64,000 nucleotides of DNA, taken from positions 30,124,908 to 30,188,907 of the forward strand of contig OV121083.1 of NCBI GenBank assembly GCA_921293015.1, written 5' to 3'. The notes under the pieces are model-generated. The model made no database searches, was not told where the DNA came from, and saw only the letters and a program-made list of their open reading frames with translations. This document shows positions 3,133-50,790 of the stretch, in pieces (position 1 is the stretch's first letter; each line of letters begins with the position of its first letter). The translations under genes and the position numbers were made by a program. This stretch comes from Phorcus lineatus (taxonomy: Eukaryota; Mollusca; Gastropoda; Trochida; Trochidae).

Positions 3133-3259
3133 CAAAATTACTCTGCTGTTTTGACCTGTACGTGTCAATGAGTAGACACGCCCCACTCATCACTAATCCA
3201 GCACCCCCCTTATAGCCTACTACAAACAAGTATTATTAATAGATAACAGATTCAAACCT
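3133..3259 (+). repeat. left terminal inverted repeat, old Polinton
   Basis: This matches the reverse complement of 27229-27353 over about 125 bases with few differences; it includes the shared GTGATGAGTGGGGCGTGTCT, read from the right copy. The inner edge covers the last codons of the MCP remnant, so the right TIR carries a second copy of that short coding end. Confidence 0.85.
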
Positions 3260-3671
3260 CCTGCTGTCAATATTCACTTGGGCATCCATGATAACATATA
3301 AGTAAATATGTACTGGCCCAGCTGCTTCTGCTTCTTTGGTGATTGCAATTGTCATTCCTTCACTACCATATTCAATTCTTCTTCCGGAGCCATGAAGTTG
3401 GTCATCATCAGTTGTTCTTAGATCAAGCCACAAAGCGTAATTGTCAGTTAAAAATTTACCTATGCCCATATCAGTCAGACACAAATCTTTCATCACCATA
3501 TTTGTTATTGGATAGCGTTTTATACTGGGAAGTTTCACAATTTCATCCCATAAATTCTGTTTATGCATATGTTGACTGTAAAGTTGATTTGGTACCTCCT
3601 CAATAGTCATTGGTATAGTTTTGATTTTAGGATTATAAAATTATTCAGTCATTCTGTCAAACCCAGCAGTA
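3236..3671 (-). pseudogene. MCP remnant, C-terminal part (old Polinton)
   Basis: The last 124 codons match the C-terminal part of the young element's MCP (43522-43902) at about three residues in four by eye, including shared VPNQLYSQ, NMVMKDLCLTDM and LWLDLRTTDDD. In the young copy this region closes the double-jelly-roll capsid protein. Its end lies inside the left TIR. The remnant is cut off at 3671 by a LINE insertion with a 13-bp target duplication. Confidence 0.85.
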
Positions 3672-4101
3672 TAAAATAATACATTCTCGCCTTAGACTTG
3701 AATGCAGCAACTTAAATGCACACAAGTATGAAAGATTCATATCATCAACTCCCGACTGTTCTTGTGGCCATAACCATGAAGATTCGACCCATTATTTCTT
3801 TTCATGTCCATTGTTCATGAATATAAGGGAAAATATGTTTTTCTATAACAAAGGTTTTGACCTGAGATCGGTCCTATTTGGAAACCCAAATTGTTCCTCT
3901 TATGTAAATCATGAACTATTGATATCTGTGCACGAATTTATAGATTTAACAGGCAGATTTGCATCGGATCCATAATTGATATATTTTATTGGTAAAGCTT
4001 GTTGGCGACTATATATTCATATATAGATAAATCATATATTTTTGTAAATACACCATGACATGTTCTTTATCTTGCTGGCGTTTGTATAGATAAGTATATA
4101 T

Positions 4102-7100
4102 GTATCATCCCAACTGCGGATCCGCCCCATCTTAAGATGGGACGGGGGATACTAAAACAAGTTAATAATATTCATATTTTATAATGATTTGTGTCAGTAA
4201 AACATGTTTTTAGATAGTTTAGTTATATTCTATTCACACTTACGAAGAAAATTTGATTTGATTTTCATTTACTTCACTTTTTCACTCGATTTCATCTGTT
4301 ATCGAGTACAAACGATTCAACACTACTCAAACATTTATTGAAAGTCACATTTGATTACTGATTGAATCACATTTGTTAAGCAACATAACAAAATCAGATC
4401 AATATATAGATTTATATTTAGATAATAGTTTTCAGCATTTTTCAAACGACCAATAAATGCGTAGATCGAACAGCTGACATCACAGAGACATCTTTGTATC
4501 TCAGTTTCTTTACAAAAAGGTGGTATAAACTATTAACAATCAAATATATGAAGTTATTCTAATACAGATCCAAGTTTTACACAACTAGTGATAAATTGCT
4601 TTTTCAAAAATATATATTTAAAAAACGTACCTGATACAGAGAAATGAATAATTTATACAAAAACCTCCTATAAACAGAAGTTAAGGTACTCTCCATCGTT
4701 ACAATGCAACACTGAATAGACTGAATATGTTAATGTGTCAGCTTGGCGAGACAGAGAACGGATGATTTGACACCAATTTGCCCACCGTAGGAACTGTTAG
4801 GCTATAACAACATATGGAGACACCAACACCCCATGTTGTTTTAACAAAGTATTATCTTGTTTATCTACTTGGCGACTTGGTTGATTGTATCAAATGTAAA
4901 AGAAATTAAAAGTTCCTATCATCGAAGTCTAGTTCCCCAACATTTTAGATATTTTCAAATAGTGCCAACCTTAGGGTTTGAATATTCCCTAGTAACTCAT
5001 ATCAATATACTAAAATCTGTCTTAACGGCGACAAATCTTTGTCACAGAGTGTTAACGAATTCCTAAGAATAAATATATGTATCATTTCATAAACGATAGC
5101 ATTCGATTTTTAAAGCTTTTTCCTAAAAATTGTACAAAAGATGTAGACAAAGCTTATATAAATTTGAGTTTAGTAAGAATAATTGCAAATGTATATTTCC
5201 ACCAATGTACTTGATATCTAAATCGTTTTATGTTTGTTTCAAGAAAAGAATTTATATGAGCATTTGCTGCCTGTTTGCTAATCCTTTTTTCTTTTTGTAA
5301 ATATATTCTGAATTTTGTGTAACACATGTTTTATTGAAATAAAATATCGTTTAAATCTTAGAAATATACTTACTAACCATTATATGATTACACTTAATGC
5401 ATATTTTCATACAATGAAATATCGAATATTTTACAATAAGCAATGACAATTTCAATATCAAATATATATGAGAAATAACAGTTTCTATATCAAATTTGTA
5501 TAAGCAATAACAATATGAATCATTTAGTCCTCTGAGGATATTACATTAGTACACGTATGTCAGCACAAAATTACTCAATAAGTCTTAGTATATCAATAAA
5601 TCTTCATTGATGTGTATTTACAAACCTAATGCCTTTTTTTGGGGGGACATGTTTAGTAGAATAGTTAAAGATAACAAAACGATTAGTTAAGTAAACTTTC
5701 AGCTGTAAAATAACAATATTACACTGGGAAAAAAACAATATTACACTGAAATGCAATTCTTGCCCCTCACCTACTCATCTTATTTGACATATGTACGGAT
5801 CACTTGATTAACGTATTAGTAGTAAGAACACACAACAATTCTCTCAATTCAACGCTTCTTACAAGGCTAGATAGACGCTTGTACATATAAAAATACAACC
5901 TTTTAATACTGATCAAAATCATATGTTACCTCGAGCTATGTAGAAAAATAGTAGAATAATAATAGTTGAATAATTAACGTATTGTGCTGCAACTGTACAT
6001 TGTATTTGTTTGACTTTGTGTTGTATGTTGGATGGTTTCAAAATATGATGTTTATTGAAGCGGCATTAATATAAGCTTCCAACTTGCCTCCAAATCTAAT
6101 ATCTTTTTATAAAAATGAAAATAATATGTTTAAACCATGATCTTCTTTTGCAAATCTTGGAAACTAAGTTCTCAATATTTTAAAAATCTATTGAAAAGCC
6201 TGCTATTTCCCCATAATTAATCAATGGATGATGTTAGATTTCATTTCGGTTACTTGACATGATAATCGTTCTGTTAATGAAAAAAATATTTTGAATATAT
6301 TTAGTGTGGCAAAACAACTTTCATCGAATAACAATACAATAACTATAGACATTTGTTGTTGTTTTTGGTTATAGTTTGATCACGTCTGCTTCCACCTATC
6401 AGAGATGTTGCCGATAGGGGCCAATGCCTTGATAAATATGAATGATGATCATTGACTAAAACAACAAACGCTCGGCGTGTACCTTTGTAGTGTTACATGT
6501 GTCATGTACCCATTCTGGTCACTAATTGAAAGGTGACACACCGGATGTTTACCAAATCCCTTTCGGATACCCCCCCCCCCCCCCCCAAGCACCCACCCCA
6601 CACCCATCTCTGAACTACCATGCAGGTATGTTTGCCATTTGCATCACGACACTGATCAGATCAGGTTCGATCGGAAATATGAGGAGGCATAACTGGATTT
6701 ATTTACTGGACATCTTATAAGCATTGACGGAACGCCATTTATAGGTTAGTGTTTGCGAATTATGTTTAGAAACATACACTTTTAGATTCGACTATCAAAC
6801 ACAATAAGTACATTGGAATCTTGCTTAACGGAACGGTTTATGTGTAAGAAATTGAACTGATTACAAAGCATTAGATTAGCATTCTTGGTATTCACTAAGA
6901 GTAGGTTTGGGTGTATAATTGCATATAATTTCTTATTTAGTTGCTTAACATGGTGTCATTATTAAAAATATTTAAGAATATAATGAAATAATTTATAAGA
7001 TTTTGTATAAGAATTACTTTTGAAATCGTATTGGGCTATGATGAAAGACTCGTATGCGATGAGAGACAATAAGTCATGAAAATCAACATAAAATCAAAAT

Positions 7101-7246
7101 ATCTTTTGATGTCCTTAAAGCACTTATCTAAATGATACATGTTATCATGTTATTACTAAATTCAACATTAGAATAAGGATATTATGAACATGTTAAGGTA
7201 TCTGCCGTCCCATCTCAAGATCGGACGTCCCAACTTGGGATGATAC
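4102..7246. mobile_element. non-autonomous TIR DNA transposon with palindromic ends
   Basis: Both ends start GTATCATCCCAA when read inward, and each end folds on itself. The left 51 bases run from GTATC to GATAC and include the perfect palindrome CCCATCTTAAGATGGG; the right end has a similar but diverged fold. The flanks are ATATAT on both sides, so the exact target duplication is ambiguous. The 3.1-kb interior shows no transposase. It contains a LINE family A 3' end near 6045-6138 and a 17-base C tract at 6570-6586. An isolated end of the same family lies at 59313-59428. The superfamily is not recognised. Confidence 0.7.
6045..6138 (+). mobile_element. LINE family A 3' end fragment
   Basis: The stretch from GAAGCGGCATTAATATAAGC to AATAATATGTTTAAACC matches the 3' end of the LINE at 7300-7368. 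It lies within the interior of the DNA transposon at 4102-7246. No target duplication was looked for with success. Confidence 0.6.
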
Positions 7247-7368
7247 ATATATATTCATTGTACCATCACCATGACATGTTCTATATTTTGTATTTTGGAG
7301 CGGTATTAACATAAGCTTCTAGCTTGTTTACCAATCCAATTTTTTTCTGAAATAAATATGTTTAAACC

Positions 7369-7663
7369 AAACCCAGCAGTAGGGGTTTTGAATAGCATCA
7401 AAACACCTTTCATAGACAATAGTACATTTATATTAACATTCCACACTGAGTCACTTTTCTCAGCCGGTATCATATGATGACAAAGTATACGATCATGAAA
7501 TATAGACAAGGGACTATTATATAAAGAATGTATTTCACGGGCCAAATCTGGTTCTGTAACTTTGTCAAATTCTAATGCAATATTCTTAATTTCATAAATT
7601 ATTTCATTACTACCTATGATAACTTGTTTATATTCATTAAATGTTAGTTCATATTCTAATCCA
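7369..7663 (-). pseudogene. MCP remnant, middle part (old Polinton)
   Basis: The minus-strand reading contains LEYELTFNEYKQVI, YEIKNIALEFDKV, EIHSLYNSPL and MKGVLMLFK. Each has a direct counterpart in the young MCP (43522-44803). It continues the capsid remnant beyond the LINE insertion and is bounded on the other side by a Penelope-like fragment. Confidence 0.85.
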
Positions 7664-8275: not shown

Positions 8276-8307
8276 TTCTATTGGAATATGAAAAATAAAT
8301 ATATCAA

Positions 8308-8687
8308 ATGTCGCATTATGGTCAGAAACTCAATCCGTTGCGCTAGCTTAGTGAGAATCTTGCTATCACAGGAATCCGATCCTCTGTAAGTGTAACAAAT
8401 AACCCTAGTACTATCAGCCAAAATGAACAACTGTTGGTTCGTTTTCCAAATCTTCGAAGTCAGTAATCGTTCCAGGAACAACCCGCTTGGATTTTGATAT
8501 ATTCTTAACATCAGATGGTTCCAAAGATAAAGATAGTACCGTAGTACAAAACATTGGCCGAGCTATAATAAAGAAAACCACTGTTAAAATAAGTAGTAAT
8601 GAAGTATTGTCTATAGATGACAGTGATATATATCACACTTATATGGATCTTTGGAGACCTACACAAGAAAGAAATAATCTTCTTTAA
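8308..8687 (+). pseudogene. MCP remnant, N-terminal part (old Polinton)
   Basis: The plus strand reads MSHYGQKLNP at the start and later NEQLLVRFPNL, IVPGT, GRAIIKKTTVKISSNEVLSI and DDSDIYHTYMDLWRPTQER. These match the front of the young MCP (start at 44803). This part lies on the strand opposite to the other MCP parts of the same element, so the remnant has been internally rearranged. Confidence 0.8.
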
Positions 8688-8693
8688 TTAAAT

Positions 8694-9770
8694 GTCTGAA
8701 CTTAGAAATTTTGATGATGATGCAGGAGCTGTTGGAGGTGCTTTGATAGCCAAGGTACTAGAAGTACTTCATTCATTTCTGTAAATAATCAAGGGGTTAA
8801 ACCCGAAGTAGAACGTTTGTATAAAGTATTGGGCAACCCTGAGGGGGGAATTGATTATACCAAATTTACTATAAATAAAAATGGGCAAATTAGACTAAAA
8901 AATACCCTAATATAGACTTGGTCTACAAACGAGATGGGAAACCCCACAGTCTTGAGTCTATAAGAACTCAAAGAGGTGCAGGTGTAAATGTTAATCGCAA
9001 TGAATTAGGATTTACAGATTATACAAGTACACCAAAACCAAAACTTCTAGAAAAGATTGAGAGAACACTTCAAAGTTCAAGGGCACAATTAAATGAAGCA
9101 GAACAAACTCTCATAAAACAACCAATCCAAGGTGTAAGTGAAGCTAAGGATACAGTAGACAAAACCATACACACCATTAACGACCCACAATTAAATACTA
9201 AAGGGATAGAACTAAGTATAAGGGAATTGCGAGGACTCGACGAGGCAATGCGGACTCAAAGAGGTGAACTAATAAATAACCTATCCAAACTAACAAAATA
9301 AGATAAACATATAGCTTATGAAAACGATAAATTAGCCAAAGCCAATAACCCAGAACAAAAGGAACGGGTTATTAAGGGAATAAGGGATTTGGAAGATGAA
9401 AGGTCGGCACGTTTGAAATCTGCTTCAACAAATAAAGAAGTATTACAAACACAAATTTAGCAGACTATTGATATGATATTAAGGGAAGATACATCCCTTT
9501 GGGAGTGTCTTCGAACTTTGTTTTGGGAACAGGGAATAACCATTGCCAGTATTTTAACAGCGATAGGCCTTCTAATATCAACTCTGACTCAATCTATAAC
9601 TGGAGGCTCCCACACCAAAACAGAAACCCAATAAACTCAAAGAATGGCTACAATATATATCCAAATCATTAGCGAACTAAACAGGAAAAGCCACATTACC
9701 AGGTATAATAGGAAGTATACTATCATGGCTTTTTAACCTTTCAGCTAAAAAAGCATCTTGGTTGAGTACA
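8694..9770 (+). pseudogene. coiled-coil membrane protein remnant (old Polinton)
   Basis: This matches the young proteins at 44854-46157. Shared landmarks are NRNELGFTDY, the heptad-rich stretch with QLNEAEQTL, RELRGLDEAMRTQRGEL, the EQGITIASILTAIG membrane segment and a second hydrophobic C-terminal part. It starts a few bases from the MCP N-terminal part, as in the young copy. The function is unknown; the family recurs in Polintons of invertebrates. Confidence 0.8.
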
Positions 9771-10035
9771 AATCACAGTACAGTCACAAATCATTGGTTT
9801 ATTCTTCCAATCCTCCATCTCCTCTTCATTAGATATCTTTATATGGTAATTTTTGAAAATATCCATGAACCTAGCGACAAAATTAGTCCCTTTAGTATCT
9901 ACCCATATAGTTTGTATTGTGAAGTATTTTTCTCTTTTTTTAATAATAATATTTACGACCGGTAAATCCACTGTAAACTCCTCCAGTGTCATACTTTGCT
10001 TTGCTATTATACTAATAGGACAATGTTGCCATTTT
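9741..10035 (-). pseudogene. remnant of conserved Polinton protein (46498-47496 type)
   Basis: The minus strand contains QTIWVDTKGTNF, DIFKNYHIKISNEEEME and a following W-rich piece. This corresponds to QSIWVNAKGSNF and DIFENYEVTISNEDEIE in the young copy. Only the front third of the family is visible here, between the coiled-coil and penton remnants as in the young element. Confidence 0.75.
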
Positions 10036-10065
10036 ATTTTTTAAAAATAAATGCTTAAATGATAA

Positions 10066-10323
10066 AATGTACCTGACTATTCCTAATCTTAAGAATGGGG
10101 AAACAATCTTAGAGAAAAACCTTCCACTTTATTGAGGATAATTCCTGTGGTAAATGAGACTTACAACACTGGTAGATATGAAACGTTAACTAACCGTCAA
10201 TATAAGAAACTTAAACTTAGTCGAATACCCAACTTGAAAATTTCGATATTAACTACAGACAATCAACCAATTAATATTGGGTACACAACTTTAACACTAC
10301 ATTTAAGGGGTTGTGATAATTAA
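10066..10323 (+). pseudogene. penton-like minor capsid remnant (old Polinton)
   Basis: It starts MYLTIPNLKNGETI and ends with the C-terminal block RIIPVVNETYN, NRQYKKLKLSRIPNLKISI and a final TLHLRG. The young copy at 47533-48198 has the same first and last blocks. The closing pattern (RIIPV ... I.I.T... LTLH) is that of the single-jelly-roll minor capsid (penton) proteins of Polintons. Much of the middle is not visible here. Confidence 0.7.
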
Positions 10324-10329: not shown

Positions 10330-10822
10330 ATGACAGATTTCACAGGACCTCGAACCAAATCATGTGTGAATATCGGGATTGCAGATTTAGATTGCCCTGG
10401 TCTCTTATTTTCCAAATACAAAGAAGGGGATTGCAGTATCAAATGACGCTGGATTAGGTCTCACCAGAAATAAGGAAGTAAAGGCCAACATACCTGTGTT
10501 CCTGGAAATAATACACATTTTTAATAGGAAGAATTATTGGGAATATCTGTACCTGGAATTGTTTTTGGGAGCCGTACCAACGGATTTTGTGACCATACTT
10601 CCCGGATTGAATATAAAATGGAAAACTCGTAATAGGCCCATTAGTATTTACATAACACCTGATGCAATGGTAAATAGTTTGGAAGGTGACGTAGAAATCC
10701 AACGCCCCGCAGGAAGTAGGATTAAGGCTGACAAGATAGCTATGGATAATAAATTTTTCTTTAAGAAATTGTGCACTTCTGAAGAACCATTTCTGAATTA
10801 TCTTAGAGACTTTGCTTTATAA
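10330..10822 (+). pseudogene. remnant of the DFVTILPGLNIKW family (old Polinton)
   Basis: It opens MTDFTGPRTKSCVN and later carries VPTDFVTILPGLNIKW, ITPDAMVNSLEGDVEI and a final FFKKL block. It pairs best with the second of the two tandem paralogues in the young copy (49072-49977). Only one family member is visible in the old element. Confidence 0.75.
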
Positions 10823-10860: not shown

Positions 10861-11384
10861 ATGCATTCTGAGTTATCAAACGATGTTGAGGCATTCCGAT
10901 TAGCCAATATTGGTGAAATAAAAGCTGAGATTAATTATGAACGGGATTCCCATAAACAAAAACAAGAAAATTATAAAAAGATAGTTAATGTCACAGACAT
11001 CTTGGACACAACATTTATCACATTAAGTGTAGCATTGGTTACAGCTGGGGTGGGAGTACTATCAATGGTAATCTTGACACCAGTAGCAATTGGATAAGAA
11101 GCAGCCGCAACTTTATCTGGTGTCCTCGGTGTTTCTTTAAAGTTTGTTTCACGCATTTAAAATTGAAGAAACATGAACAAATTAGAACTATTGCCGATTC
11201 TAAACTAAACACCATATCAGACCTTATTTCTAAAGCGTTAGATGATGGGTCAATCTCAGACACAGAATATGCTTTGATATCTCTTGAGCTTTCAAAATAT
11301 CAAGAAATGAAGGAAAATATCAAAGTGGTCAAATCTTCAAAGGAAGATATCATGCAATTGTTTCGAAAGTTTAAGAGAGATTGA
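10861..11384 (+). pseudogene. two-helix membrane protein remnant (old Polinton)
   Basis: This matches 49995-50516 of the young copy along its length: NDVEAFRLANIGEIK, a hydrophobic core with TLSVALVTAGVGVLSM, then LKKHEQIRTIADSKLNTISDLISKALDDG and a charged tail. The core could form a membrane hairpin. The function is unknown. Confidence 0.8.
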
Positions 11385-11398: not shown

Positions 11399-11665
11399 TC
11401 AAGTACAATTGGTTACTGGTTTCTGGTTGGGAAAGATCTTTGAAATATCCCTCACACATATTAACTTTAATTTTACACTCGAAGGCCCTATGCAAATTGA
11501 ATCAATTTTTATTGCGGCACTGATCAAAACATGAGGATAATTGATATCAATTTCATCAATGAATTCTATATCATTCCCCACAGTGAAAAGTTTGGATTTC
11601 ATATAACTTTGCAAACAGGACATTACATTCGGGTTTAAAACATTTACACAAATCATCCTAGACAT
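11399..11665 (-). CDS. extra ORF of the old Polinton, unknown
   Basis: An 88-codon minus-strand reading between the two-helix membrane protein and integrase remnants. No counterpart was found in the young element. It contains no motif I recognise. With its neighbour at 11691-12017 it fills the junction that corresponds to the ends of the young element. It may be part of a cargo gene or a chance ORF. Confidence 0.4.
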   Translation of the reverse strand: MSRMICVNVLNPNVMSCLQSYMKSKLFTVGNDIEFIDEIDINYPHVLISAAIKIDSICIGPSSVKLKLICVRDISKIFPNQKPVTNCT

Positions 11666-11690: not shown

Positions 11691-12017
11691 TTACCGTCTC
11701 CCTTTCTTAGTTAATTCATTTGTTTTATCATTTAATTCATCTATTTCCATTTTGTAGTTGCTTATCAAGTGGGTTTTACATTGTTCTATAATTTTTGATA
11801 AAGCATTACCCAACTCTTCTGATAAATGTAATGGTATGTAAAATCCTCCATATAAATCTCTTTTTATGAAGGATTTGATATTTTTCACAGGAAATATCAA
11901 ACTATTCCCATCATTTGTGGAAATATCAATTATTTTATATGTAATATCATTAAACACAACTTTTCTTGAATCACTGAATAAAATGCTATAATTTCTAGGA
12001 TTTGACAATTTATTCAT
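11691..12017 (-). CDS. extra ORF of the old Polinton, unknown
   Basis: A 108-codon minus-strand reading, MNKLSNPRNYSILFSD at the front, followed by a Val/Ile/Asp-rich segment (KVVFNDITYKIIDIS), an LYGGFYIPLHLSEELG stretch and a charged coiled tail (MEIDELNDKTNELTKK). It is one of the few open readings of this length in an otherwise badly broken element. It lies between the membrane protein and integrase, has no counterpart in the young copy and is not recognised. Confidence 0.5.
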   Translation of the reverse strand: MNKLSNPRNYSILFSDSRKVVFNDITYKIIDISTNDGNSLIFPVKNIKSFIKRDLYGGFYIPLHLSEELGNALSKIIEQCKTHLISNYKMEIDELNDKTNELTKKGRR

Positions 12018-12049: not shown

Positions 12050-12850
12050 AAAACTGACCAAATTGGATCTGATGCTCTAAACCCTCAACCTTCGAGTTCC
12101 CCCGGTTGATATAAATATCTAACACTAACTCTATCAGGTATTATTTTTTCTGACCCCAATAGAGGTGCTGCAGCCTTTGCTGTCACGGATTTCAGTTTAA
12201 TAGCATTAACCGATTAACCGGTTTCTTATCAATAATTCTAGTTTTTTCATTATTCAATGCTGAAATAACTTGTGGTAATTTAAGAATCCATTCTCTGGAC
12301 CTCTCGGACAATTTGGTATTGTTACCGGATTTCATTTTTAATTCCTCTGCACACTGATAGCCGAATAAGCGCTCGGATAATGTCTTATTGAACCTCTCCA
12401 CAATAGCTTGACTTCTGTGCGCCTCCTTATATCCCCGTCTTATTTTTATTACATTATGTTTTGTCAGGAACGATGTTACCTCAGCGAAAAATTCCCTCCC
12501 CGCATATACTTGGAAATTTCAATGGAGTTGTTTTGTATATTTTTTCTAAAGCTTTAGCAACTTCTGTTGAGTTTTTAGTTGTTAGTGGCATTGCCACATC
12601 AACAACCATCAATGCGTATCGATAAATTTTCTCCTAACTCTGTCATGGGGTAAGAATAGTAAGTCAGCTTGGTGGATTTCATTAGGTCAACTTGCATCAA
12701 ATTTCCGCCTGGGTATGTATACTTAGGTGGGGGCAAATATATTTGCCAAATGGCTTGTTTCATTAACCAATTCTTGGCTTCGGTTTTACTAACCTTAGCA
12801 ATTTATCTATAGCTGCAAGGTCTTTTTAATAGCCCCTCGGGCTGTAATAA
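12050..12850 (-). pseudogene. integrase remnant (old Polinton)
   Basis: Parts of the retroviral-type (DDE) integrase are visible in the same order as at 35557-36531. These include a VERFNKTLSERLF-like stretch (read as MERFNKTLSERLFGYQ), the KLPQVISALNNEKTRIIDKKP block, and toward 12750 the WQIYLPPPKY-like front part. The gene is broken several times. In this element integrase is internal, whereas it is the end gene in the young copy. Confidence 0.8.
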
Positions 12851-12879
12851 ACCCTCTGGAGTTTCTTTTCCATATTTCA

Positions 12880-15800
12880 AACTTTTAAGTAATCACATCT
12901 GAATACCCATATGTATACCCATAAGCATTAGTATTAACACCATTATCTGTAATCCACCTTTTAGTATCTAATGGACATAAGGATGTTTTATTTATTCTCT
13001 TGCATAAATGTTATGACCTACACTTCTCAAAGTATTCATTTCATGTTTAAAACTCTTCTTACCAAACAATGCCTCTTTGTATTGACCAAAGTTCATATAT
13101 TTCCTAACTACATATAGTTTGATTCCCTTAGCCTTCTTGATTTCGTTTTCTGCCATCTGTATGCAGTACATTTTAGGTCTTAAACCTCACATATTCAGAA
13201 ATAGGTGTACCATTATATTCATCTTTCATCTTACCTAAAACCTTTTTATTTTTCACATTGTGTAATGGGTGGTCTTTATCAAAATCCCTGGTATCATACA
13301 AGTCATTGTTTTCCTTCATATCTTCATGCACATCATCCGTTTGTATTTCTAGTAGTAAAGAATCTGTGTTGGTGTATAACACCTCACATCTATCCCTATA
13401 AGTCTTCTTAAACTCATTGTAATAAAAGTCGTACATCAAAAGTTTGGATAAGTCTAAGATGCTCATACCAACGAAAATCAGTTTATTGAAAACTATCTTG
13501 GATTTATTCATGTAAACAGCAGCTAAATCATGATCAAATATTTTGAATTCGTTAAAAGCTTGATTAGCAATAGCCTTCCTGAGAGGTTCATTTTTTCCCT
13601 CTGCCCTGAATAATTGCTCATCCACTCTCTTAAATTCTCCATAGTTTACCAAATACTGAATTATTCATGAACTTGTAAAGATTCTTTTCGAAATCACTTG
13701 TAGCTTTCTTCCTCAGTTCAGTATTCAATCTAATATAAGGCTCCATCCAAGGACTCTGGTCAAATTGAAGGACCCTAAGTACTTAAGTTAATTCCATACC
13801 CAAAGAGATACATAGCTGTAGATTTCTATAGTGAACTACATATTTTGATTTGTTCATTAAATTTAGTATCATTTTTTGCACATCTGATAGCTTCTTATCT
13901 CCTAGTAAATTATTTTGTTAATCAGACAACCATTCTTGTTTAACTATTAATATTAATTGGGGCCAGAGGATAAGTGTTGTGGGTTTATGTAATTCTTTCA
14001 GATATTCAATATGAACTTCGAATATATATCCGGGTTTAGAATCTTTTGGTATTTTCAGGATGTGCTCTGCTGCAAACTCTGTATTAACCCACTTAAATCC
14101 TCCAGTTGGCAAATATTGGCTCATCGTCAACCTGTAAAGGTTATTAGCATCTAAATATAATATATGATTAGATGGTTTACATTTTTCATATCCTTCTATG
14201 TATGTATTGTTTGCTTTAGCATGTCTCTTGGAAACCATGGATATACCACCTCTAAGTCCCTTCTCAATGAATAAATGCATATCATAATCAGTAAGAAGTT
14301 TTAATTTTATACCAGTTTTCTTAAGCAAGGCATCCCAAGAAAGTCCTGGACTAGTGAAATAATGTGCAGGATCCAATCCGTACTGAGAGAAACAAGTCTT
14401 CCTGAATGTCTCAAATACATCAGCAAGTAATAATACATCAGTTTTTAGATAATAGTCGTGATAGTAACCTAAATTCTTACACCCGAATGAGTTCCACACA
14501 TTTTAGCATGTTCGTAATCATCATCAGTTATATTACTTCAGATAAATCATTATAGAAATATTCAATAGGTGGTAATTCAGTTTCTTCAAACCTATCCCAA
14601 CTGTCCAATGAAGAATATGGATATATTCCTTTTTTCAATAATAAATGACGATTACACTCCTTGGTGTACTTGCCATTACACTCCTGAGAGTACTTGCCAT
14701 TACACTCCTGAGTGTACTTCTCAGTTATTGCAAATGTGTCATTAGCTTTTACTAAAGAATCTAGAGACATTAGAAGAAACTGACAACTGTCAATAAACCG
14801 GAGGTGCCTTAATGAAAAGGTAATATATTTCTCCATATTATTTGGAATACATTTGATATCCCCAGGAACATAAGAAATAGCCTACATGATAAGGTTTGCA
14901 TCATAATTTTTCAGATTGTGAAACACCACTGGGATTGTTATACCTTTGGGCTTTAACTTTATCTGGGTGTTTTAACCATTCGCGGAGAATTGTTCAAAAT
15001 GTCTCCGTTGCATTTGGTCCTCTGTAAATAGTTGGTTTATAACTTACCCCATCACATCGGGTGACCAGTTATCCAAATCCGCAGGCCTCATGTGATTGTG
15101 ATATAACAGTAAAACTTTGCTTTGGATCGGGATGTGCGGTATGAACTTTCTTGTTGATCTACTCAAAATAAGCATAAATAACATGAGGTGCAAGCATTTG
15201 ATTTTGATAATTTTTAAAACAGAGAGTTTCCTTCCCCTGTTTCGTCATATCAATTCTAAAAGCAGTTTCACTTACACTTCTACAGTCTGCTTTATGTTCT
15301 TTGAGTAAATCTTCTCTAGAATATCCGTGTCTTTTACAAAAGTAGTTTTTTCTTTTTATGTTTTGATTGATCGTACAAAAGCCTTTCCAAATTTTTTATC
15401 CAAGTATAATGATATTTATCATTATCCTCAATTAGAAAGAGGTTTAGTCTAGTAATCTTTTCATCAGCTTAACTATTCCTATGAATAATGATACCCTTGT
15501 TACTTTTATTATTCCCGAATACATTAATAGCTAAATTATTCAGTTTTTCTAGTCTTGAAATTTGTGAAACAGGAGTAGACATGTCTATACCAGTAAAACT
15601 AAGCCCATCATCAGTAGGATAAGAAGAGAGTCTATTAGAATTTGAAGTAGCTGGAAATAGGGCAGATTGCAATGCCCACCTGATACAGTTATCATCATTA
15701 TTCTTTACATTTATAATTTCCCTCTTTTTCTTATAATATTCTGGTAAATCTATATAAGATCCTCCCTTCATTGGGTTATATTTTGCTACGTATAACCATA

Positions 15801-16466
15801 ATTTTTCTATACGGTTTACCACTCCCCCAGAACCATTTCTTGTGTATCTTTCTAAATTTTCTTCTACCACTTGTTGAGCTTTAGTCAAAGTTGAAGGAAT
15901 ATCATCTGGATTTGTTATTACCATTTATTTGCTTCTAAAAAAAGCGTGGGTTATAGTATTTTCACCATCCTTGATAAAGCTAACTTTAATTGCCAATTGG
16001 TATTTCATGTTAGTCATGTCTTTCAATTCTTCTGTTAATTTGTTTACTAAAATCTTTTCTGTATCTATATAAAGTGTAGATAAATCCTTTCAATTATGTT
16101 CCATTTCCCAGCTTCGTAGATATCTAGTAAAAGTATTTGTTAATTGGAATTGTTCTGGTTTGATATTTAAATCTCTTTTAATATCTAAATCTTTTAAATA
16201 TTGGTCATCTTTTTTTGTTCAGTTTCAATTTTATTCTTGATTTTGAATTGTTCTGGTTTGATATTTAAATCTCTTTTGATATCCTTATCTAAATCTTTTA
16301 AATATTCTTTATCTTACTTCTTTACCTTTGATTCAGTTTTAATATTACTTTTTATCTTTTTTAATTTAGGTGTTTTCAAAAAGGTTTCTGCCACAAATTT
16401 GGCGGCCCTTTTCCTGACCTCTTGATTACCCCGCCTTTTGCTGCTTCTAATTGAAATGGCCGGCAT
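12880..16466 (-). pseudogene. DNA polymerase B remnant (old Polinton)
   Basis: Most of the protein-primed family B polymerase can be traced. Visible blocks are TDSLLLEIQTDDVHEDM near 13300-13380, LGYYHDYYLKTDVLLLADVFETFRKTC and DYDMHLFIEKGLRGGISMVSKRHAKANN near 14200-14460, LYLDANNLY near 14140, and the N-terminal NDDNCIRWALQSALFPA block near 15650-15720. The front near 16460 starts MPAISIRSSK. It is broken many times. Gene order and strand relative to integrase are the same as in the young copy. Confidence 0.85.
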
Positions 16467-16556: not shown

Positions 16557-17075
16557 TTAAGAAACAGCTTTTGTATAAGAGTTGTCTAAAAAGCAACCTT
16601 TATTTATATACTTCTTACTAATCCAAAACGTTTTCTCAATTTCATTATAACTTTTGTCAATATTTATTTCTTTATAAACTTTATACAAACAAAACATTAT
16701 CAACCCCAATCTATTGTTTCCTCTTAGAATTATGTTTAATTTTTCCACTATTGCAATATATAAATATTTGCAAGAAGTTTTATAAATGGTATAGGAATAT
16801 GTATCTACTTTCTTCTAAAGACCTCATAGATAAGGGCAGTTTTTTTTTGTATCGTTAGATTAGTATTTATCGGATAATCTTCAAAGAAATTAAGAGTTTT
16901 AAATTCTTCCCCACAGTTTATCTGTGTCCTTCATAACTATTGATAATATTCTCATGATTACATTCTTTAATAGTCAAGTCTTCACAATTATCACATCGGA
17001 TAACAAAGTGACATCAATTTTCACAGAATAATTCATTTCTGTATATAATAGTTTCTCCATGGAGGCAATCCATTT
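16557..17075 (-). pseudogene. TFIIB-like zinc-ribbon protein remnant (old Polinton)
   Basis: The minus strand begins MDCLHGETIIYRNELFCEN with Cys/His pairs and later shows the KLNIILRGNNRLGLIMFCLYKVYKEINIDKSY block that matches the young protein at 40465-40995 (KLNLIKRGKNRLGLIGVCLVHAYKELNVDKSY). It lies upstream of the polymerase as in the young copy. Confidence 0.75.
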
Positions 17076-17789: not shown

Positions 17790-18100
17790 TCTTTAAAGAA
17801 CCTCATATGCAGAATTACTCCCTGGACATGTATGTCTGGATCTTGAAATACCAACTCCTATTCCTATTCCAATAACACATATCAAAATGGGAAATAATAT
17901 ATTTCCATGATTTACAACCACAGTCCGCTGTTCCCTCAATTGCTTCTGTTCATTTTGTGGTGCATAATGGAGTGCACTCAGCTGTGCATTCTGTAGTGTA
18001 TTACGTTGTTCACGTTTTTATTTCTTAACCATAGCCCCCTTCTTACCAGCAGCAACTTTTTTAGGATTTTTTGTAACTGTAAGTTTTGGAGGAGTTCCTT
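17790..18100 (-). pseudogene. basic protein remnant (old Polinton)
   Basis: The minus strand shows the KLTVTKNPKKVAAGKKGAMVKK-type basic block and a following hydrophobic segment (NHGNILFPILICVIGIGIG). Both match the Lys-rich protein at 41743-42156 of the young copy. A DNA-condensing or core role is plausible by composition only. Confidence 0.6.
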
Positions 18101-18404: not shown

Positions 18405-18626
18405 TTATGGTATTGATATTGTTACATGTTAGGTATTGAATATTATGTATCTGCTATTAATCATATAGCTATCCGAAGAACTATTTGTTTATTAAGATTA
18501 CATGCACTTCCCCTGAGATGTAATATCCAGGGTGTTGATGTGAATAGAATCTGTAAAATGTGTGACTGTGCCCTGATTGAAAATAAAATTCACTTTTTGT
18601 TTGAATGTGACGCATCACTACAGAAA

Positions 18627-26160: not shown

Positions 26161-26169
26161 ACTTAGTAC

Positions 26170-36548: not shown

Positions 36549-39500
36549 TTATGCTTTTAAATACCCATGTGCGTATGTATTTACACCATCATTGGCAATC
36601 CATCTTTTAGTATCTAATGGAGATAATGATGTCTTTTTAAGCCGCATTGCGTACATGTTATGTCCTTCACTTCTCAAAGTATTTATTTCATGTTTAAAAG
36701 TCTTCTTATCGAATAATGCCTCTTTATACTGCTCAAGGTTGGTATTATTCTTAACTACATAATTTTTAATTCCCTTAGCTTTCTTAATTTCTGCTTTAGA
36801 TTTTTTAATACAATACTTCTTCGGTCTTAATCCGACGTATTTAGAAATAGGAACACCCGAACATTCATCCTTAAATTTACCTAAAACCTTCTTATTTTTT
36901 ATGCTGTGCAATGGGTGATTTTTATCAAAATCGCTAGTATCGTACAAGTCAATTTTTTCTTTCATGTCTTCGTAAACATCATCGGTTTGTATCTCTAATA
37001 ACAAAGAATCTGTATCGGTATATAAAACTTCGCATTTATTTCCATATTGTTTCTTCATCTCATTATAATAAAAGTCATACATTAAGTGTTTCGATAAGTC
37101 TAATATGCTCATACCAACGTATATTGGTTTGTTCAATTTTACTTTTGTTTTATTCATATGAACAGCGGCTAAATCGTGGTCAAAGATTCTAAATTCATTA
37201 AAAGCAGGATTAGCAATAGCCTTTCTTAATGGTTCTTCTTCTTCATCATTTGTCCTGAATAATCTTACGTTTATTCTATTCCTCACATTTTCCATAGTTT
37301 TACCGTATACAGCATTATTCATTAATTTGTAAAGGTTTTTCTCAAAATCACTTGTAGCTTTCGTCCTCAAATCTGTATTCATTCTAATATACGGCTCCAT
37401 CCAAGGGCTCTGATCAAATTCAAGAATTCTGTGTATTTTAGTTAACTTCATACCCAATGAAAGATATAATTGGAGATTTCTGTAATGAATTACGTATTTG
37501 CTTTTATTCATTAAGTTGGGCACTAATTTCTCTACATCGGGCATTTTTTCTCCGTTTAATAAATTATTTTGATAATCGGAGGACCATTCTTGTTTCACCT
37601 TAAGTCTTTCAGGGGCCAATGGATAGGTATTATGATTAATATGGGTCTCTTTCGAGTATTCTAAATCTACTTCGAGAATTAAACCCTTCTCTGAATCTTT
37701 AGGTATATTCATAATATCGAGATTCTCGTATTGTACCCACTTAAACCCACCCGTAGGTAAATATTGACTCATCGCCCAGCCGTAAAGGTTATTCGCGTCT
37801 AAGTAAAGTATGTGACTCAATGGCTTACTCGGATCATATCCCTCTACATATTTATTGTTAGCCTTGGCATGTCTCTTGGACACCATGGATATTCCACCTC
37901 TGAGCCCTTTCTCGATAAACAAGTGCATGTCATAGTCGGTTAGTAGCTCTAGTTTTACTCCGGTTTTAAAAAGTAAAGCGTCCCAGGATAGCCCTGGACC
38001 CGTGAAATAATGTGCGGGATCTAACCCATATTGTTTCGAGCAAGTCTTTCTGAAAGTTTCGAATATATCAACCAGTAATAATACATCAGTTTTTAGATAC
38101 AAATCGTGATAATCGCCTAAATTTTTACACCCGAATGAATTCCACACATTTTTAGCGTGATTATAATCATCATCGCTTATATGACTTTCGGATAAATTGT
38201 TATAGAAACATTCAATAGGTGGTAGTTCGGTTTCTTCAAACCTAACCCAATTATCCATATACGAGTATGGATATACTCCTTTTTTCAATAATAAATGCCG
38301 CGTGAGTTCTCGGGTATATTGTTCAGTTATAGGGAAGTTACTATTAGCCTTTACCAAAGAATCTAACGACATTAGAAGAAACTGACAACTATCTATAAAC
38401 CGGAGGCCACCTAAAGAAAATGATATATATCTTTCCATATTATTAGGTATACATTTTATATTGCCATCAACCTTAGAAATAGCCTGCATAATAAGGTTTG
38501 CATCATAAAATTTCAGGTTGTGAATTACTATGGGAATTACGATCTGGTCAGGTTTTATTTTAAGTCCTAAGTTGCATTTGTTATGAGCCGCACCACGATA
38601 CTTGCCCGTAATATGACAGTGATCGCGTACTTTTTTCCAATCTTTTTTATTAGAAACCCCCCCATTACAAATCCAACAATTTTTAGCTTTATCAAATTTA
38701 CTCTTTTCATCCTCAGTCATATCCATAGGTTTTATATCTTTTAATTGTTCCCTAATATTGTCTTCAACTTCCTGAAGGCGTATTAAGAATGTCTCCGATG
38801 CATTTGGCCCCCTATCAATTGTCGGTTCCATCGTTTTTCCATCGCACCTAACTGGAATAAATCCAAAGCCGCACGCGTCGTGTTCCTCTATTTTATGAGT
38901 AAAACTTTGATTATTATTACTGGGCTGTACATTATGAACTTATTTATTGATACTCTCAAAATCTGCGTAAATAACCCAAGGAGCGGGCATCTGGTTTTGA
39001 TAATTTTTAAAACGGAGTATTTTATCTTTCCCCTCAGGCATATCAATTTTAACAGCAGTCTTACTGACACTCCTGCAGTCAGCTTTATGTTGTTGCAGTA
39101 GGTCCTCTCTAGAATACCCATGAAGACATCTTTCACAAAAATATTTTTTCCCCATATGTTTAGATTGATCGGATAGAAGTTTATTCAAATTCTTTATCCA
39201 CATATAATGATATTTTATATTAATGTCTTCCTTATCAAGTTTGTATTTCTTCTTATCCTCTTTTTCCTTATTAATTTTATATTTTCTCCTGTTCAGCTGT
39301 TTTCTAACCTTATCAATTGCGTCTTCTTCTTCTTCTTCTTCTTCTAATAGAAACACATTAATTTTAGGAATATTTTCATCGGCAAAACTAATCCTATGAA
39401 CAACGAAACCATCATTTTCTTTATTATTCCCAAATATATTAATAGCCAAATTATTCATTTTTTCTACCCTTGTAATTTGTGAAATTGGAGTTAGAGTGTC

Positions 39501-40340
39501 TATACCATCAAAATTAAGCCCATCATTAATAGGATATGATGATGCCCCATCGGAGTGTGAATCTGCTGGAAATAAGGCAGATCTCAAAGCCCATCTTAAA
39601 CAGTTATCATCCTTATTCTTTACATTAATGATGGCCTTCTTATTCTTATAATATTTGGGTAAATCTATATAGGACCCACCTTTCAATGGATTATATTTCG
39701 CTACGTCTAACCACATTGTTTCGATGCGATCTACAACCCACCCAGACCCTTGATGCGTAAATTTTTCCAATCTTTCTTGTATCACTTCTTGGCATTCGGA
39801 TAAAGATGTAGGAATATCACTCGAGTCGGTTAATACCATCTGTTCAGTTCTAAAATAAGCATGCATAACAGTTTTCCCATTGCTTTTCCTATCATGCTTA
39901 CTGAGCTGAACTTTAACCACTAACTGATATTTAATATTAGTCAAATTTTCTAATTCCTCGGTTAATTTTTCTACCACAGGCTTTTCCGTATTTTTGAATA
40001 CTATTAATAGATCCTTGTAATCAAGATCTATTGCCCAACTACGTAAATATTTCCCAAAAGTTTTTGTTGAATAAAACACTTCAGATTTGATATTAGATTT
40101 GATATCAAGTTCAGTATCAAATTCAGTTATAGGTTCAATTTGAGGTTCAGTTATAGGTTCAGTTTGAGTTTCAGTTTTAGGTTCAGTTATAGGTTCAGTT
40201 TGAGTTACAATATAATTTTTCAATTTAGTCGTAATATTTTTCATACGATTAATGGTGGAAACGGATGCTCTATTTATAAAAGACTTTGCCAACACCAAAA
40301 AACGTGACATATATCCAATAATTCTACGACTCGATGCCAT
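36549..40340 (-). pseudogene. POLB: protein-primed DNA polymerase B (young Polinton), about one break
   Basis: This is the family B polymerase that replicates Polinton DNA from a protein primer. From the N-terminus: a low-complexity stretch of TEP(I/K)TE repeats, the DNCLRWALRSALFP block, an acidic E-run next to a Lys-rich segment, a C2H2-like finger (FCERCLHGYS, HKADC), an endonuclease VII-like zinc/His block (CWICNGG, RDHCHITGKYRGAAHNKC), then polymerase motifs A (LYLDANNLYGWAMSQYLP), B (KLMNNAVYGKTMENV) and C (YTDTDSLLLE). The region corresponds to about 1,260 residues, usual for the family. It has about one break. The HHH-type exonuclease end was not confirmed. Confidence 0.9.
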
Positions 40341-42792: not shown

Positions 42793-43398
42793 ATGCCAGA
42801 GATACTACCTAAAGATCCGCATTGCGCTATCATTTGCGGAAAGACTGGATGCGGAAAAACTAAATTCATGTTAGACCTTATAGAAACGGATTATGACAAA
42901 AATTTTGAACACATTATTATTATTTGTCCAACCATTAATGATAACGAAACTTGTATGTCTAAATTGTGGGTAAATAATGACCCAAATGTACATAAAATTC
43001 TTCCAGGGGAACGACTTAACGATTGTTTGAAATATTTTCACGAGAAATTCAAGAATGAACCTACCTTGTTCATAATCGATGACTGCAGTGCTGAAAGGGA
43101 CTTAACTCGAAAGAAAGCCGAATTATCTAAGCTAGCATTCTCAGGCAGGCATACTAAACATAGCGTATGGATTCTTTCCCAGAAATATAATTCTATACTC
43201 ACAGATTTCAGAGAGCAAATTCGCTGGATTTGCTCATTTAAGTGTAAGGATAAAGATAATTTTGATGATTGTTTACGAGAGAACTATGTTATTGAAAGTA
43301 AATCCGAAATAGAAAAGGTTAGAAAACAGCTGAACAGGAAATACTCCAAACATATATTATGCACCGACACACCACCATGGTATAAAGTGCTAGATTAG
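42793..43398 (+). CDS. ATP: genome-packaging ATPase, A32/FtsK type (young Polinton)
   Basis: 201 residues and open throughout. Walker A is GKTGCGKT at residues 16-23; Walker B is TLFIIDDCSAE at 91-101 with the catalytic acidic pair; SGRHTKHSVWILSQKYNSI (117-135) carries the sensor-like Gln/Asn and FREQIR a candidate Arg finger. These are the marks of the A32-like packaging ATPases of Polintons, virophages and large DNA viruses, which pump DNA into the capsid. It is transcribed toward the MCP gene, and the two stop codons abut an inverted repeat at 43395-43521. Confidence 0.9.
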   Translation: MPEILPKDPHCAIICGKTGCGKTKFMLDLIETDYDKNFEHIIIICPTINDNETCMSKLWVNNDPNVHKILPGERLNDCLKYFHEKFKNEPTLFIIDDCSAERDLTRKKAELSKLAFSGRHTKHSVWILSQKYNSILTDFREQIRWICSFKCKDKDNFDDCLRENYVIESKSEIEKVRKQLNRKYSKHILCTDTPPWYKVLD

Positions 43399-43521
43399 CT
43401 CGATTTTGCTCGGATTTTGTTAGTGTTTGCTCGGATTTTCCTAAAGTTTGCTTGGATTTTTGCTAAAAATTTTCAAACACAATTGCGTTTGAAATTATTT
43501 TAACTAGCAAAATCGAGCTAA
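43395..43521. terminator. inverted repeat between ATPase and MCP stops
   Basis: TTAGCTCGATTTTGCT (43395-43410) is perfectly inverse to 43506-43521. The left arm includes the ATPase stop codon, and the right arm ends at the base before the MCP stop. Inside are three GCT(C/T)GGATTTT repeats and a second hairpin (TTTCAAACAC / GCGTTTGAAA, about 43470-43495). A bidirectional 3' end signal is the simplest reading. The position equals the place where the old Polinton has its termini. Confidence 0.6.
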
Positions 43522-44803
43522 CTAATAAATAGCTGATTCAAATCTACCATTATTGATAATCAATTTAGCATCCATAATGACGTACACGTAAGCCTTTATT
43601 AGTACAGCTGTTTCTGCTTTTTTAGTTATTGCTATCGTCATTCCTTCACTACCATTCTCAATTCGTCTACCAGAACCGTTTAATTCATCGTCATCAGTTG
43701 TCCTAAGATCGAGCCATAGAGCATGCTTGTCGGTTAAGTACTTACCAATAGTCATATCCGTAAGACAAAGATCTTTCATCACCATATTCGTTAATGGGTT
43801 ACGTTTTATGCTGGGAAGCTTCTTAATTTCATCCCATAAGTTATATTTACGCATATCTTGACTGTACAACTGGTTTGGTACTCCTTCAATGGTCATTTGC
43901 ACGTTATTAATTTTAGGATTGTAAAATGATTCAGTTATTCTACTCTGGGGTGGGCTCTTTAAATAACATCAAAACTCCTTTCATAGACTTGGCCGGTACA
44001 TTGATATTAATATTCCACACCGTATCACTTTTATTCAAAGGTATCATACGATGTCGAAGTATGCGATCATAGTGTATTGGTATGGAACTATTATACATCG
44101 AATGGATTTCGCTGGCTAATTCTGACTCCTTGACTTTATCAAATTCCAACGCAATATTCTTAATTTCATACTTCGTGTTGGCCTCTCCTGTAATTACATT
44201 CTTATAATCATTAAATGTCAATTCATATTCTAATCTATCTCCCAATGCAGCTTGATAGAAAGGCATGTGAGTCTCTAACAATTCAAAATCTAGAGGAATA
44301 TAAAAGCGATTTCCTAGGTTATCGGCTATGGCTTTGTCTTCTACAATGTAAGCATCACCAAGACCAGATCCCATTCTTAACCTGGTGACATTTCGATTTG
44401 CAGTTGTGTCAATACCTTGATAATGTAAACTGCCTCTTTCTTGTGTAGTTCTCCAAAGATCTACGTAAGTGTAATATATATCGCTATCATCTATAGACAA
44501 TACTTCATTACTACTTATCTTAACGGTTGTTTTCTTCACAATGGAGCGACCAATATTCTGTACAATACTACTGTTCTCATCTTTATCCCCATCCGATGTT
44601 AGGACTAAATCAAAAGCCAATCTGACCGTACCCGGGACTATGACATCGTGACTTCCAAGATTAGGAAAGCGAACTAATAGTTGTTCGTTCTGATCAATAG
44701 TACTCGGTTTGTTACTTACCCTAACACTGGACCTTTCTCCTTTTATACCAAAAGGCTCTCTAAAATTACGTGATGGATTGAGTTTCTGACCGTAATTCGA
44801 CAT
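43522..44803 (-). pseudogene. MCP: major capsid protein, double jelly-roll (young Polinton), about one break
   Basis: I place the start at MSNYGQKLNPSRNF because the old element begins in the same way; an upstream ATG at 44842 is not conserved. Diagnostic stretches are NEQLLVRFPNLG, DVIVPGTVRLAFDL, GRSIVKKTTVKISSNEVLSI, NRFYIPLDFELLETHMPFYQ, RLEYELTFNDYKNVI, YEIKNIALEFDKV and LWLDLRTTDDD. The family forms the capsid lattice of Polintons and relatives. About 430 residues in all. The assignment rests on recalled family pattern and on its size and place beside the ATPase. Confidence 0.8.
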
Positions 44804-44853
44804 TTTATTAATACATATTTTAATGTTTAAAGGGAAAAACATATATTTATAAA

Positions 44854-49977: not shown

Positions 49978-49994
49978 TTCCATATATAATAAAA

Positions 49995-50516
49995 ATGCGG
50001 GCTGTATTAACAAACGACGTCGATGAATTTCGCTTGAATAGAATAAGCGAGATAAAAGATGAGATTATTAAAGAGTACGACTTTCACATGGCTAAAAGTA
50101 AATCCATTAAAAAAGCTTTAAATGTAATGGAAACACTGGATACAACATTAATTACTTGTAGTATCGCATTAGGAGCTAGTGGTGTGGGTGTCTTAGCAAC
50201 CATGATTATGGCACCCGTAAGCATCGGAATCATGGTTTCTGCGACTATCACTAGTCTCCTTGGAACATCGATGAAGGTTGCGTCCAAGAGGTTACGTTCT
50301 AAACTTAAAAAACATGAAGATATATGTATTATCGCAAATTCTAAATTAAATACCATTTCTAGCCTTATTTCTAAAGCTTTAGATGATGACTGTATCTCTA
50401 ATGAGGAATTTAATCTTATTACTGCTGAACATTCAAACTTTTATGAAATGATAAGGCAAATTAAATCTCAAAAGATTGACAGAGAAAATATTACAGAAAT
50501 GTTCAAGAAAGTCTAA
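49995..50516 (+). CDS. two-helix membrane protein (young Polinton)
   Basis: 173 residues, open. The front is charged (NDVDEFRLNRISEIKDEI); residues about 50-92 hold two hydrophobic stretches (TLITCSIALGASGVGVLATM, MAPVSIGIMVSATITSLLG) that could form a membrane hairpin. A conserved tail follows: LKKHEDICIIANSKLNTISSLISKALDD and CISNEEFNLITAEH. The family is conserved in the old element and, from memory, in many invertebrate Polintons. A membrane-active role in entry or exit would fit, but this is inference. It is the last gene before the right TIR. Confidence 0.7.
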   Translation: MRAVLTNDVDEFRLNRISEIKDEIIKEYDFHMAKSKSIKKALNVMETLDTTLITCSIALGASGVGVLATMIMAPVSIGIMVSATITSLLGTSMKVASKRLRSKLKKHEDICIIANSKLNTISSLISKALDDDCISNEEFNLITAEHSNFYEMIRQIKSQKIDRENITEMFKKV

Positions 50517-50533
50517 CCTGTATATACGATAAT

Positions 50534-50664
50534 CATATCCAAAGTTGGATATGAGCCGTTGCATAAAAGACTTGATATTGATCGGCCCAAGCTGCTACAT
50601 CCCAGGAGAGGAGTAACCTATTCACTATATGCATACCTAACTAGGTCGGGCCGACCAATATCAA
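50534..50664. terminator. two hairpins after the last Polinton gene
   Basis: CATATCCAA / TTGGATATG forms a perfect 9-bp stem with a 2-base loop (50534-50553). A second inverted repeat, TTGATATTGATCGGCCC (50572-50588) against GGGCCGACCAATATCAA (50648-50664), encloses 59 bases. A 3'-end signal or a structured RNA is possible. No hammerhead core (CUGAUGA...GAAA) was seen in it. Confidence 0.5.
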
Positions 50665-50676
50665 TAAAATATTTTG

Positions 50677-50790
50677 GTCCCCGATGAGATGTATTTCATA
50701 CATTAAAAATACGTGTGTCTAAAAGGAGGATTTTAATGTATTTCATACATTAGCTATACGTGGGTCCAGAACTGTCATTTCATATCTACT
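50677..50790 (-). repeat. right TIR, young Polinton
   Basis: About 114 bases that match the left TIR in inverse orientation but lack its 100-bp internal duplication. It ends CATATCTACT at 50790, followed by the ACTAC target duplication. Confidence 0.85.

Follow-up and report, generated by a model that had tools for sequence, protein, structure and literature searches.

Two Polintons at one locus

The window, meaning the whole 64-kb stretch of DNA analysed here, covers C5:30,124,908-30,188,907 (contig OV121083.1) in the 958-Mb assembly of the gastropod Phorcus lineatus with its 74 contigs. It contains two Polintons, each bounded by terminal inverted repeats (TIRs) and carrying genes for an integrase (INT), a DNA polymerase B (POL), a packaging ATPase and a major capsid protein (MCP). 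The terms "young" and "old" were used for the two elements and for the families they represent throughout the paper. Relative to the ends, two gene blocks stand in exactly swapped positions in the two families. This permuted order is a fact of the families and not a quirk of a single decayed copy. An earlier sequence-only reading of the stretch had already proposed a circular permutation. Using tblastn, the 15 open frames of the young element were mapped onto the 64-kb window, and each of them had at least a partial match in the old copy between 3.2 and 26.1 kb. A second old-type copy, located at C5:31,297,425-31,311,983, is called C5b. The features of both elements in the window are as follows.

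Young element
35338..35556, left TIR; starts with AGTAGATATGAAATG, ACTAC target duplication at 35333-35337
35557..36531, minus strand, integrase (Pfam rve)
36549..40340, minus strand, DNA polymerase B in two open frames of 760 and 466 amino acids (open frames and homologues)
42793..43398, plus strand, ATPase (Pfam Pox_A32)
43399..43521, ATPase-MCP spacer with palindrome; the point corresponding to the ends of the old family
43522..44842, minus strand, MCP in two open frames (close homologue modelled as a double jelly-roll capsid)
49995..50516, plus strand, o49995, adjoining the right TIR
50686..50790, right TIR; ACTAC(A) target duplication from 50791

Old element (homologues of young frames placed by tblastn)
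3069..3259, left TIR; motif AGTAGGTATAAATGGGG at 3069, inner arm 3133-3259 extending into the last MCP codons
3236..3616, minus strand, C-terminal part of MCP (tblastn match 3239-3616), 75% amino acid identity to the young one
3617..7377, mostly insertion; part also found inside the POL gene of C5b
7378..7659, minus strand, middle part of MCP
8299..8681, plus strand, N-terminal part of MCP, inverted in the window copy, in normal orientation in C5b
8897..9773, plus strand, o45111 homologue
9792..10170, fragmentary matches to young frames
10391..10813, plus strand, o48223/o49072 homologue
10861..11382, plus strand, o49995 homologue (tblastn match 10861-11369), the two-helix membrane protein of the sequence-only reading
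11402..11665, minus strand, small gene o90, lying at the joint where o49995 meets INT; unmatched in the young copy (best E 0.06)
11691..12017, minus strand, small gene o108 at the same joint; matches in other old-type loci
12052..12867, minus strand, integrase
12915..16191, minus strand, DNA polymerase B (12915-14998 and 15150-16191)
16596..17067, minus strand, o40465 homologue
17880..18400, minus strand, o41743 and o42080 homologues (17880-18086 and 18142-18400); remainder of o42080 at 25110-25214, past the insertion
18401..25109, insertion(s); a 1.5-kb part recurs within POL of copy C7
25527..26058, plus strand, packaging ATPase
27227..27353, right TIR without its outer ~64 bp; the last MCP codons are repeated in it in inverted orientation

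Both copies in the window are broken. In the young element POL and MCP are each split over two frames; the POL frame is uninterrupted in some other young copies. The young frames at 46.5-48.1 kb include overlaps on opposite strands, and their matches in the old copy are short only. The region between ATPase and right TIR of the old element (26059-27226) varies among copies in length (~1 to 2.7 kb) and in sequence. Outside the Polintons, a 217-bp inverted repeat with 99% identity and a 44-bp loop lies at the right window edge (63523-64000) and shares sequence with 31434-31781.

Gene identities

For POL, 7,987 of 7,988 scored database candidates were matches; many of the 120 listed carried PF03175, and the named homologues among them came from a sea slug, a sea anemone and snakes. 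In Pfam, the C-terminal part of the young POL matched Endonuclease_7 and not PF03175. Judged from its sequence, POL is a family B DNA polymerase of the predicted protein-primed type. The integrase was assigned by Pfam rve (PF00665, E 1.1e-9) and the ATPase by Pox_A32 (PF04665, E 1.5e-15), the family of A32-type packaging ATPases; homologues of both were present in the old copy. The MCP sequence had no match in Pfam or PHROGs, and a sequence search of the PDB was uninformative. A fold model was built on its homologue P0121, which is 75% identical to the N-terminal part of the young MCP, and reached a predicted local distance difference test score (pLDDT) of 73, replacing an earlier MCP model with a pLDDT of 57. 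All 50 listed PDB matches of the P0121 model were double jelly-roll capsids (E 2.9e-15 to 1.7e-10, template modelling score 0.47-0.56), with capsid entries of PBCV-1, iridovirus, EhV, mavirus, Sputnik and faustovirus. As modelled, MCP is a double jelly-roll major capsid protein. At an E cut-off of 0.1, Pfam found neither a cysteine protease nor a minor capsid protein in the 15 young frames, and PHROGs searches with 7 proteins gave weak matches only, with no protease or minor capsid protein recognised. The frame o40465 (40465-40995) starts with pairs of the CxxC type and looks like a zinc ribbon; by eye it is reminiscent of TFIIB-like factors. A family match for it was found neither in Pfam nor in PHROGs.

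Exchange of two gene blocks

The gene order of the young element is TIR, INT(-), POL(-), o40465(-), o41743(-), o42080(-), ATPase(+), MCP(-), o45111(+), o48223/o49072(+), o49995(+), TIR. The order of the old element is TIR, MCP(-), o45111(+), o48223/o49072(+), o49995(+), INT(-), POL(-), o40465(-), o41743(-), o42080(-), ATPase(+), TIR. With INT-POL-...-ATPase as block A and MCP-...-o49995 as block B, the young order reads A-B and the old order B-A. The sole strand exception is the inverted N-terminal part of MCP in the window old copy. Amino acid identity between young and old as measured by tblastn was 75.4% for the C-terminal part of MCP (about three quarters by eye in the sequence-only reading), 74% in the best-matching stretch of POL and 69% over most of the ATPase. 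The permutation itself was borne out by order and strands of the tblastn matches and by C5b, which has both ends and a target-site duplication (TSD) and shows the order TIR-MCP-o45111-...-o49995-joint-INT-POL-o40465-o41743-o42080-ATPase-1 kb-TIR, with an insertion in POL.

Both families are present in many copies, with the genomic copy counts being lower bounds. Searching the genome with POL yielded at least 69 matches (59 of 570 candidates scored), and full-length matches other than the window's own were 88-95% identical. A DNA search with the old POL yielded at least 61 matches (40 of 270 candidates scored), which split into an old type at 79-93% and a young type at 72-75%, with a single short piece at 71%. 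Using the inner TIR arm of the old element (3133-3259) as query, at least 40 matches were obtained (40 of 91 candidates scored). The neighbourhoods were scored for the best 20 of these loci, spanning only ~1.5 kb on either side of the match; two pairs of loci among them are the two ends of one copy each, L039/L041 for the window copy and L042/L043 for another. The old TIR adjoined MCP in 16 of the 20 loci, the ATPase in 2 (window right end and C9) and neither in 2. In one of the 16 (L056), ~300 bp of ATPase-side sequence stood between TIR and MCP.

Of 10 old-type POL loci including the window, 6 contained joint DNA next to INT, to o49995 or to both; with C5b and C37, which also have it, and C7, which does not, this gives 8 of 13 old-type copies. 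In the copies without it (L021, L023, L024, L027, C7) INT was missing or present only as a fragment in the examined stretch. C7 retains both ends but has suffered an internal deletion, and in L023 a TIR lies near the INT fragment, oriented, however, as part of a neighbouring element. Both small genes of the joint had matches across copies; o108 was matched in 5 further old-type loci (L020, L022, L025, L026, L063), in some with stops, and also in L077. The joint, where the sequence-only reading had membrane protein and integrase converge in the middle of the old element, recurs in other copies; the two small minus-strand genes between them had been missed. In the young family the TIR adjoined INT in 11 of 13 distinct copies, the exceptions being L016 with a truncated INT and L034. 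ATPase and MCP stood tail to tail in 4 of 5 fetched young copies, the spacer between them being ~100-130 bp long and containing a conserved palindrome. In the fifth copy the spacer was present but MCP was not. Five right-end stretches of young copies were inspected: one (L070) had a TIR past o49995 at a distance of ~0.7 kb, two had o49995 without a TIR within the stretch, and two missed the element. The adjacency of o49995 and TIR was therefore seen in two young copies, that of the window and one other.

Several copies have histories of their own. L042/L043 (C12:22,447,541-22,448,328) form a 0.9-kb derivative consisting of TIR, MCP fragment and TIR, whose target duplication nearly matches; it is a putative non-autonomous derivative of a Polinton. 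The old-type ends L044 and L047 (C1:10.32 and 10.26 Mb) are 59 kb apart and 99.7% identical including 1400 bp of flank; as the identity reaches into the flank, a host segmental duplication carried the element. Old-type POL fragments at C13:20,093,899 and 20,109,352 lie in mirror image with equal match ranges ~13 kb apart, which represents an inverted duplication. In L031 (C15:14.87 Mb) the TIR of a young element directly adjoins an old-type fragment of POL; the young element has apparently inserted into an old one.

Relationship of the two families

A tree of POL pieces was calculated from 90 rows (8 old, 11 young, 67 database proteins, 4 contig loci), leaving out L025, L026 and L031, for which the piece was too short, and the partial L035. 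Support was 99/96 for the old family, 100/99 for the young family and 99/90 for both as sisters, with a bootstrap that had not settled and with some old rows being long. As the young POL had served as query for the database proteins, relatives closer to the old family may be missing from this tree. The tree of the C-terminal part of MCP (68 rows, among them 55 of the 103 usable database rows; 129 columns) was poorly resolved. It placed 10 old copies, 3 young copies and P0121 together with an SH-aLRT (approximate likelihood ratio test) support of 93, P0121 falling within the unresolved old side. The close kinship of the two elements proposed before was thus recovered in both trees, and since POL and MCP both group old with young, neither block looks brought in from a distant Polinton.

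In scans of the IMG/VR database the POL alignment yielded 1 distant contig, a single POL and the MCP alignment none. The search of genome contigs yielded 9 loci, all distant or fragmentary, and no close outgroup with known order; the polarity may be old to young or young to old. The distant contigs L008 and L010 showed an orientation of POL and INT unlike either family.

Ends and target duplications

TIR ends were of the AG/AGT type, with an AGTAG start in most examined ends of both families. The inverted repeat previously taken as the old TIRs (3133-3259 and 27229-27353) is real, its inner arms 3133-3259 and 27227-27353 being 93% identical; the left end, however, lies further out at 3069, and the right TIR is broken off at 27353. 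As this right arm ends inside the TIR palindrome, no TSD is visible for the window old copy. In the old family, homology in the outward flank mostly continued ~65 bp past the 3133-3259 arm and then stopped. In 18 of 19 TIR loci the end motif AGTAGGTATAAATGGGG (AGTAGG-like) was found 55-79 bp beyond the arm, matching at 11-17 of 17 positions; L056 was the one without it. C5b is flanked on both sides by AGGATG, a TSD with 6 of 6 matches, and near-TSDs with 5 of 6 matches were seen for C7 (TATACA/TACACA) and C12 (TATGTT/TATATT). Young TSDs were ACTAC plus the terminal A in the window and CATTC plus A in the copy at C37:40.44-40.46 Mb. Because members of each family have TIRs and target duplications, both families have moved as units. 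The window right arm (27353), the right arm of C2 (L059) and the C37 end (L056) are all broken within the same TIR palindrome, as if this hairpin were fragile or processed.

For 7 young and 13 old ends, comparison of the outer 32 bp gave a mean ungapped identity of 0.60 versus 0.28 in column shuffles, which preserve relatedness; for the full 32 bp none of 1000 shuffles was as good. Since the ends had been located by a motif in the first 11-17 bases, columns 18-32 provide the fair test, and here the identity was 0.49 versus 0.25, with 7 of 5000 shuffles being as good. The outer ~32 bp of both TIR sets thus look homologous, and the ends probably descend from one TIR while the neighbouring genes changed. 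A constraint by the integrase on the first few end bases may be a cause of the likeness.

A further trace was found at the far side of old-type elements, that is the ATPase side or the end opposite MCP. All 6 far-side ends counted (window, C9, C12, C5b, C2, C7) carry 23-58 bp comprising the MCP stop and last codons in inverted orientation; C2 was placed without a check of neighbouring genes, and a seventh end, C39, whose side was unclear, was not counted. As the far ends carry the inverted last MCP codons, the MCP side was the donor and the far end is the copy. C37 represents the reverse case, with ~300 bp of ATPase-side end sequence placed between TIR and MCP.

Possible routes of the exchange

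A circular or concatemeric intermediate would be the most economical mechanism for the exchange, and we give it a probability of about 0.47. A change from A-B to B-A in one step with the same ends needs a molecule with joined ends and a rebuilding of the TIR at the new opening. The exchange would be a single event on the branch leading to one of the two clades, in either direction. Element DNA would have existed as a circle or head-to-tail joint with block A beside block B on both sides, and would then have been opened at the other boundary between the blocks, where the existing TIR was rebuilt. In the old family the MCP-side end would have gained its TIR first, and this end together with the last MCP codons would then have been copied to the far end. 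Such traces of copying from end to end, visible in present copies, would be expected of a protein-primed linear DNA with TIRs that replicates like an adenovirus. Homology of the ends, MCP codons at the far side and the reverse case of C37 all fit this route. The sequence-only reading had offered, besides such an intermediate, the capture of new termini at an intergenic hairpin. This was not upheld: because the outer ~32 bp of both TIR sets look homologous, the ends were probably moved, and no significant likeness was seen between the old TIR and the spacer that separates ATPase and MCP in the young family. Palindromes with TCAAA/TTTGA arms occur in both, but as their sequences were not significantly alike, nothing was concluded from the arms.

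A number of results speak against the circular or concatemeric route. Since the end homology was weaker outside the motif columns, the probability of this route was lowered from 0.5 to the value given, and those of inversions and of block exchange, treated below, were raised slightly. The window young end alone was not significantly similar to the old ends in ungapped comparison (1133 of 5000 shuffles as good), and single-pair local alignments of ends were mostly weak, with 2 of 18 old ends (L052, L062) beating all 500 shuffles. Neither the INT-o49995 joint of the old family nor the ATPase-MCP spacer of the young one held a convincing TIR relic. Comparing old TIRs with joints, 2 of 32 pairs beat their 50 shuffles. 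In both, the TIR of L046 was aligned to the same ~24 bp of gene o90, in two joints that are related to each other; none of the remaining three TIRs beat its shuffles. The joint is also not a simple fusion of young ends, because it contains the two extra genes o90 and o108. Circular, tandem or TIR-TIR joint forms were not seen, no search aimed at them having been completed. Finally, two inversions would yield the same final order.

According to that explanation, blocks A and B were each inverted in place, stepwise, between TIR and inter-block boundary; because of the symmetry of the TIRs, (-A)(-B) becomes B-A, the old order, when it is read from the opposite end. Vertebrate Mavericks show module orientations (PMC8097293) that in our reading look like zero, one and two inversions, and small inversions do occur in the present copies, such as that of the MCP N-terminal part at 8299-8681. 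Two events with breakpoints at the same boundary are required, however, and no copy with a single inverted block was seen in the 20 TIR loci or the 13 young copies, each covered over only ~1.5 kb on either side of the match. We regard inversions as a serious though less probable alternative. Still less likely is an exchange of blocks in which elements residing together recombined or switched templates, for instance after a short TIR-bounded derivative had landed in the ATPase-MCP spacer and provided new ends. A derivative of this kind exists in the 0.9-kb C12 copy, as do rearranged copies (L023 on C19, L056/L077 on C37), but the grouping of old with young by both POL and MCP argues against a distant parent for either block, and the joint holds no convincing leftover TIR. 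That the orders differ due to deep divergence of unrelated Polinton lineages is very improbable: gene orders vary widely among endogenous mavirus-like elements (EMALEs), as described for their types (PMC8547959), and POL and INT of L008 and L010 are oriented unlike both families, but old and young are sister clades with 74-75% amino acid identity in the best POL stretch and the C-terminal part of MCP. The old element might also be a composite of two half Polintons joined head to tail, as its decay and insertions in the window could suggest. This was ruled out by C5b, which has the same order together with TIRs and a 6-bp TSD, and by the joint, which was present in 8 of 13 copies. Two objections raised along with the permutation were likewise excluded. 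The inverted repeats do not belong to another element, as they hold MCP codons and adjoin MCP in 16 of 20 loci, and two separate Polintons with TIRs near 11.4-12.0 kb are contradicted by the lack of a convincing TIR-like sequence there and by the joint found elsewhere.

Extending the circular or concatemeric route, Polinton ends may be portable: a circle or concatemer would have been reopened at the other boundary, its own TIR transplanted there, first beside MCP and then by copying to the far side, and the new family would have spread by integration. We regard this as tentative, with the chances somewhat against it. If true, permutation of this kind would belong to the normal ways in which Polintons evolve, and it would speak for a stage of their replication that is circular or concatemeric. 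As two multi-copy sister families share one genome, their genes and related-looking ends in permuted order, the way in which Polintons move their ends and replicate, including any passage through such a stage, becomes testable by comparison. The order in an outgroup would give the polarity, and joints in other copies the route.

Comparison with known systems

The findings suggest that Polinton gene order can change abruptly while the ends persist, and caution against gene order or neighbouring genes as a guide to deep relationships. A literature search found no title on circular permutation of Polintons; most subscription journals were outside its coverage, so such a report may be in print. 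In related virophages, circular forms and forms with inverted terminal repeats do not follow clades and a core block is reshuffled, according to PMC6905037; these are, however, metagenomic genomes and not animal Polintons. EMALEs share with the Phorcus families the flanking TIRs, an encoded capsid and a gene order poorly kept between types, but belong to the virophages of protists, and the excerpted passages describe no exact circular permutation (PMC8547959). A further system for comparison are the vertebrate Mavericks (Barreat and Katzourakis 2021, PMC8097293). These elements of 12.7-24.6 kb have TIRs, a 6-bp TSD, POL, INT, ATPase and MCP in common with the Phorcus families, and their end motif is built on AGT repeats compared to AGTAG here. 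The content of the blocks differs, with INT and POL in tandem on one strand in Phorcus. Modules of vertebrate Mavericks converge in general, lie on one strand in Xenopus tropicalis and point away from each other in the cane toad. Thus, the exceptional orders reported there belong to frog and toad hosts, whereas in Phorcus lineatus two orders are found in sister families of one genome.

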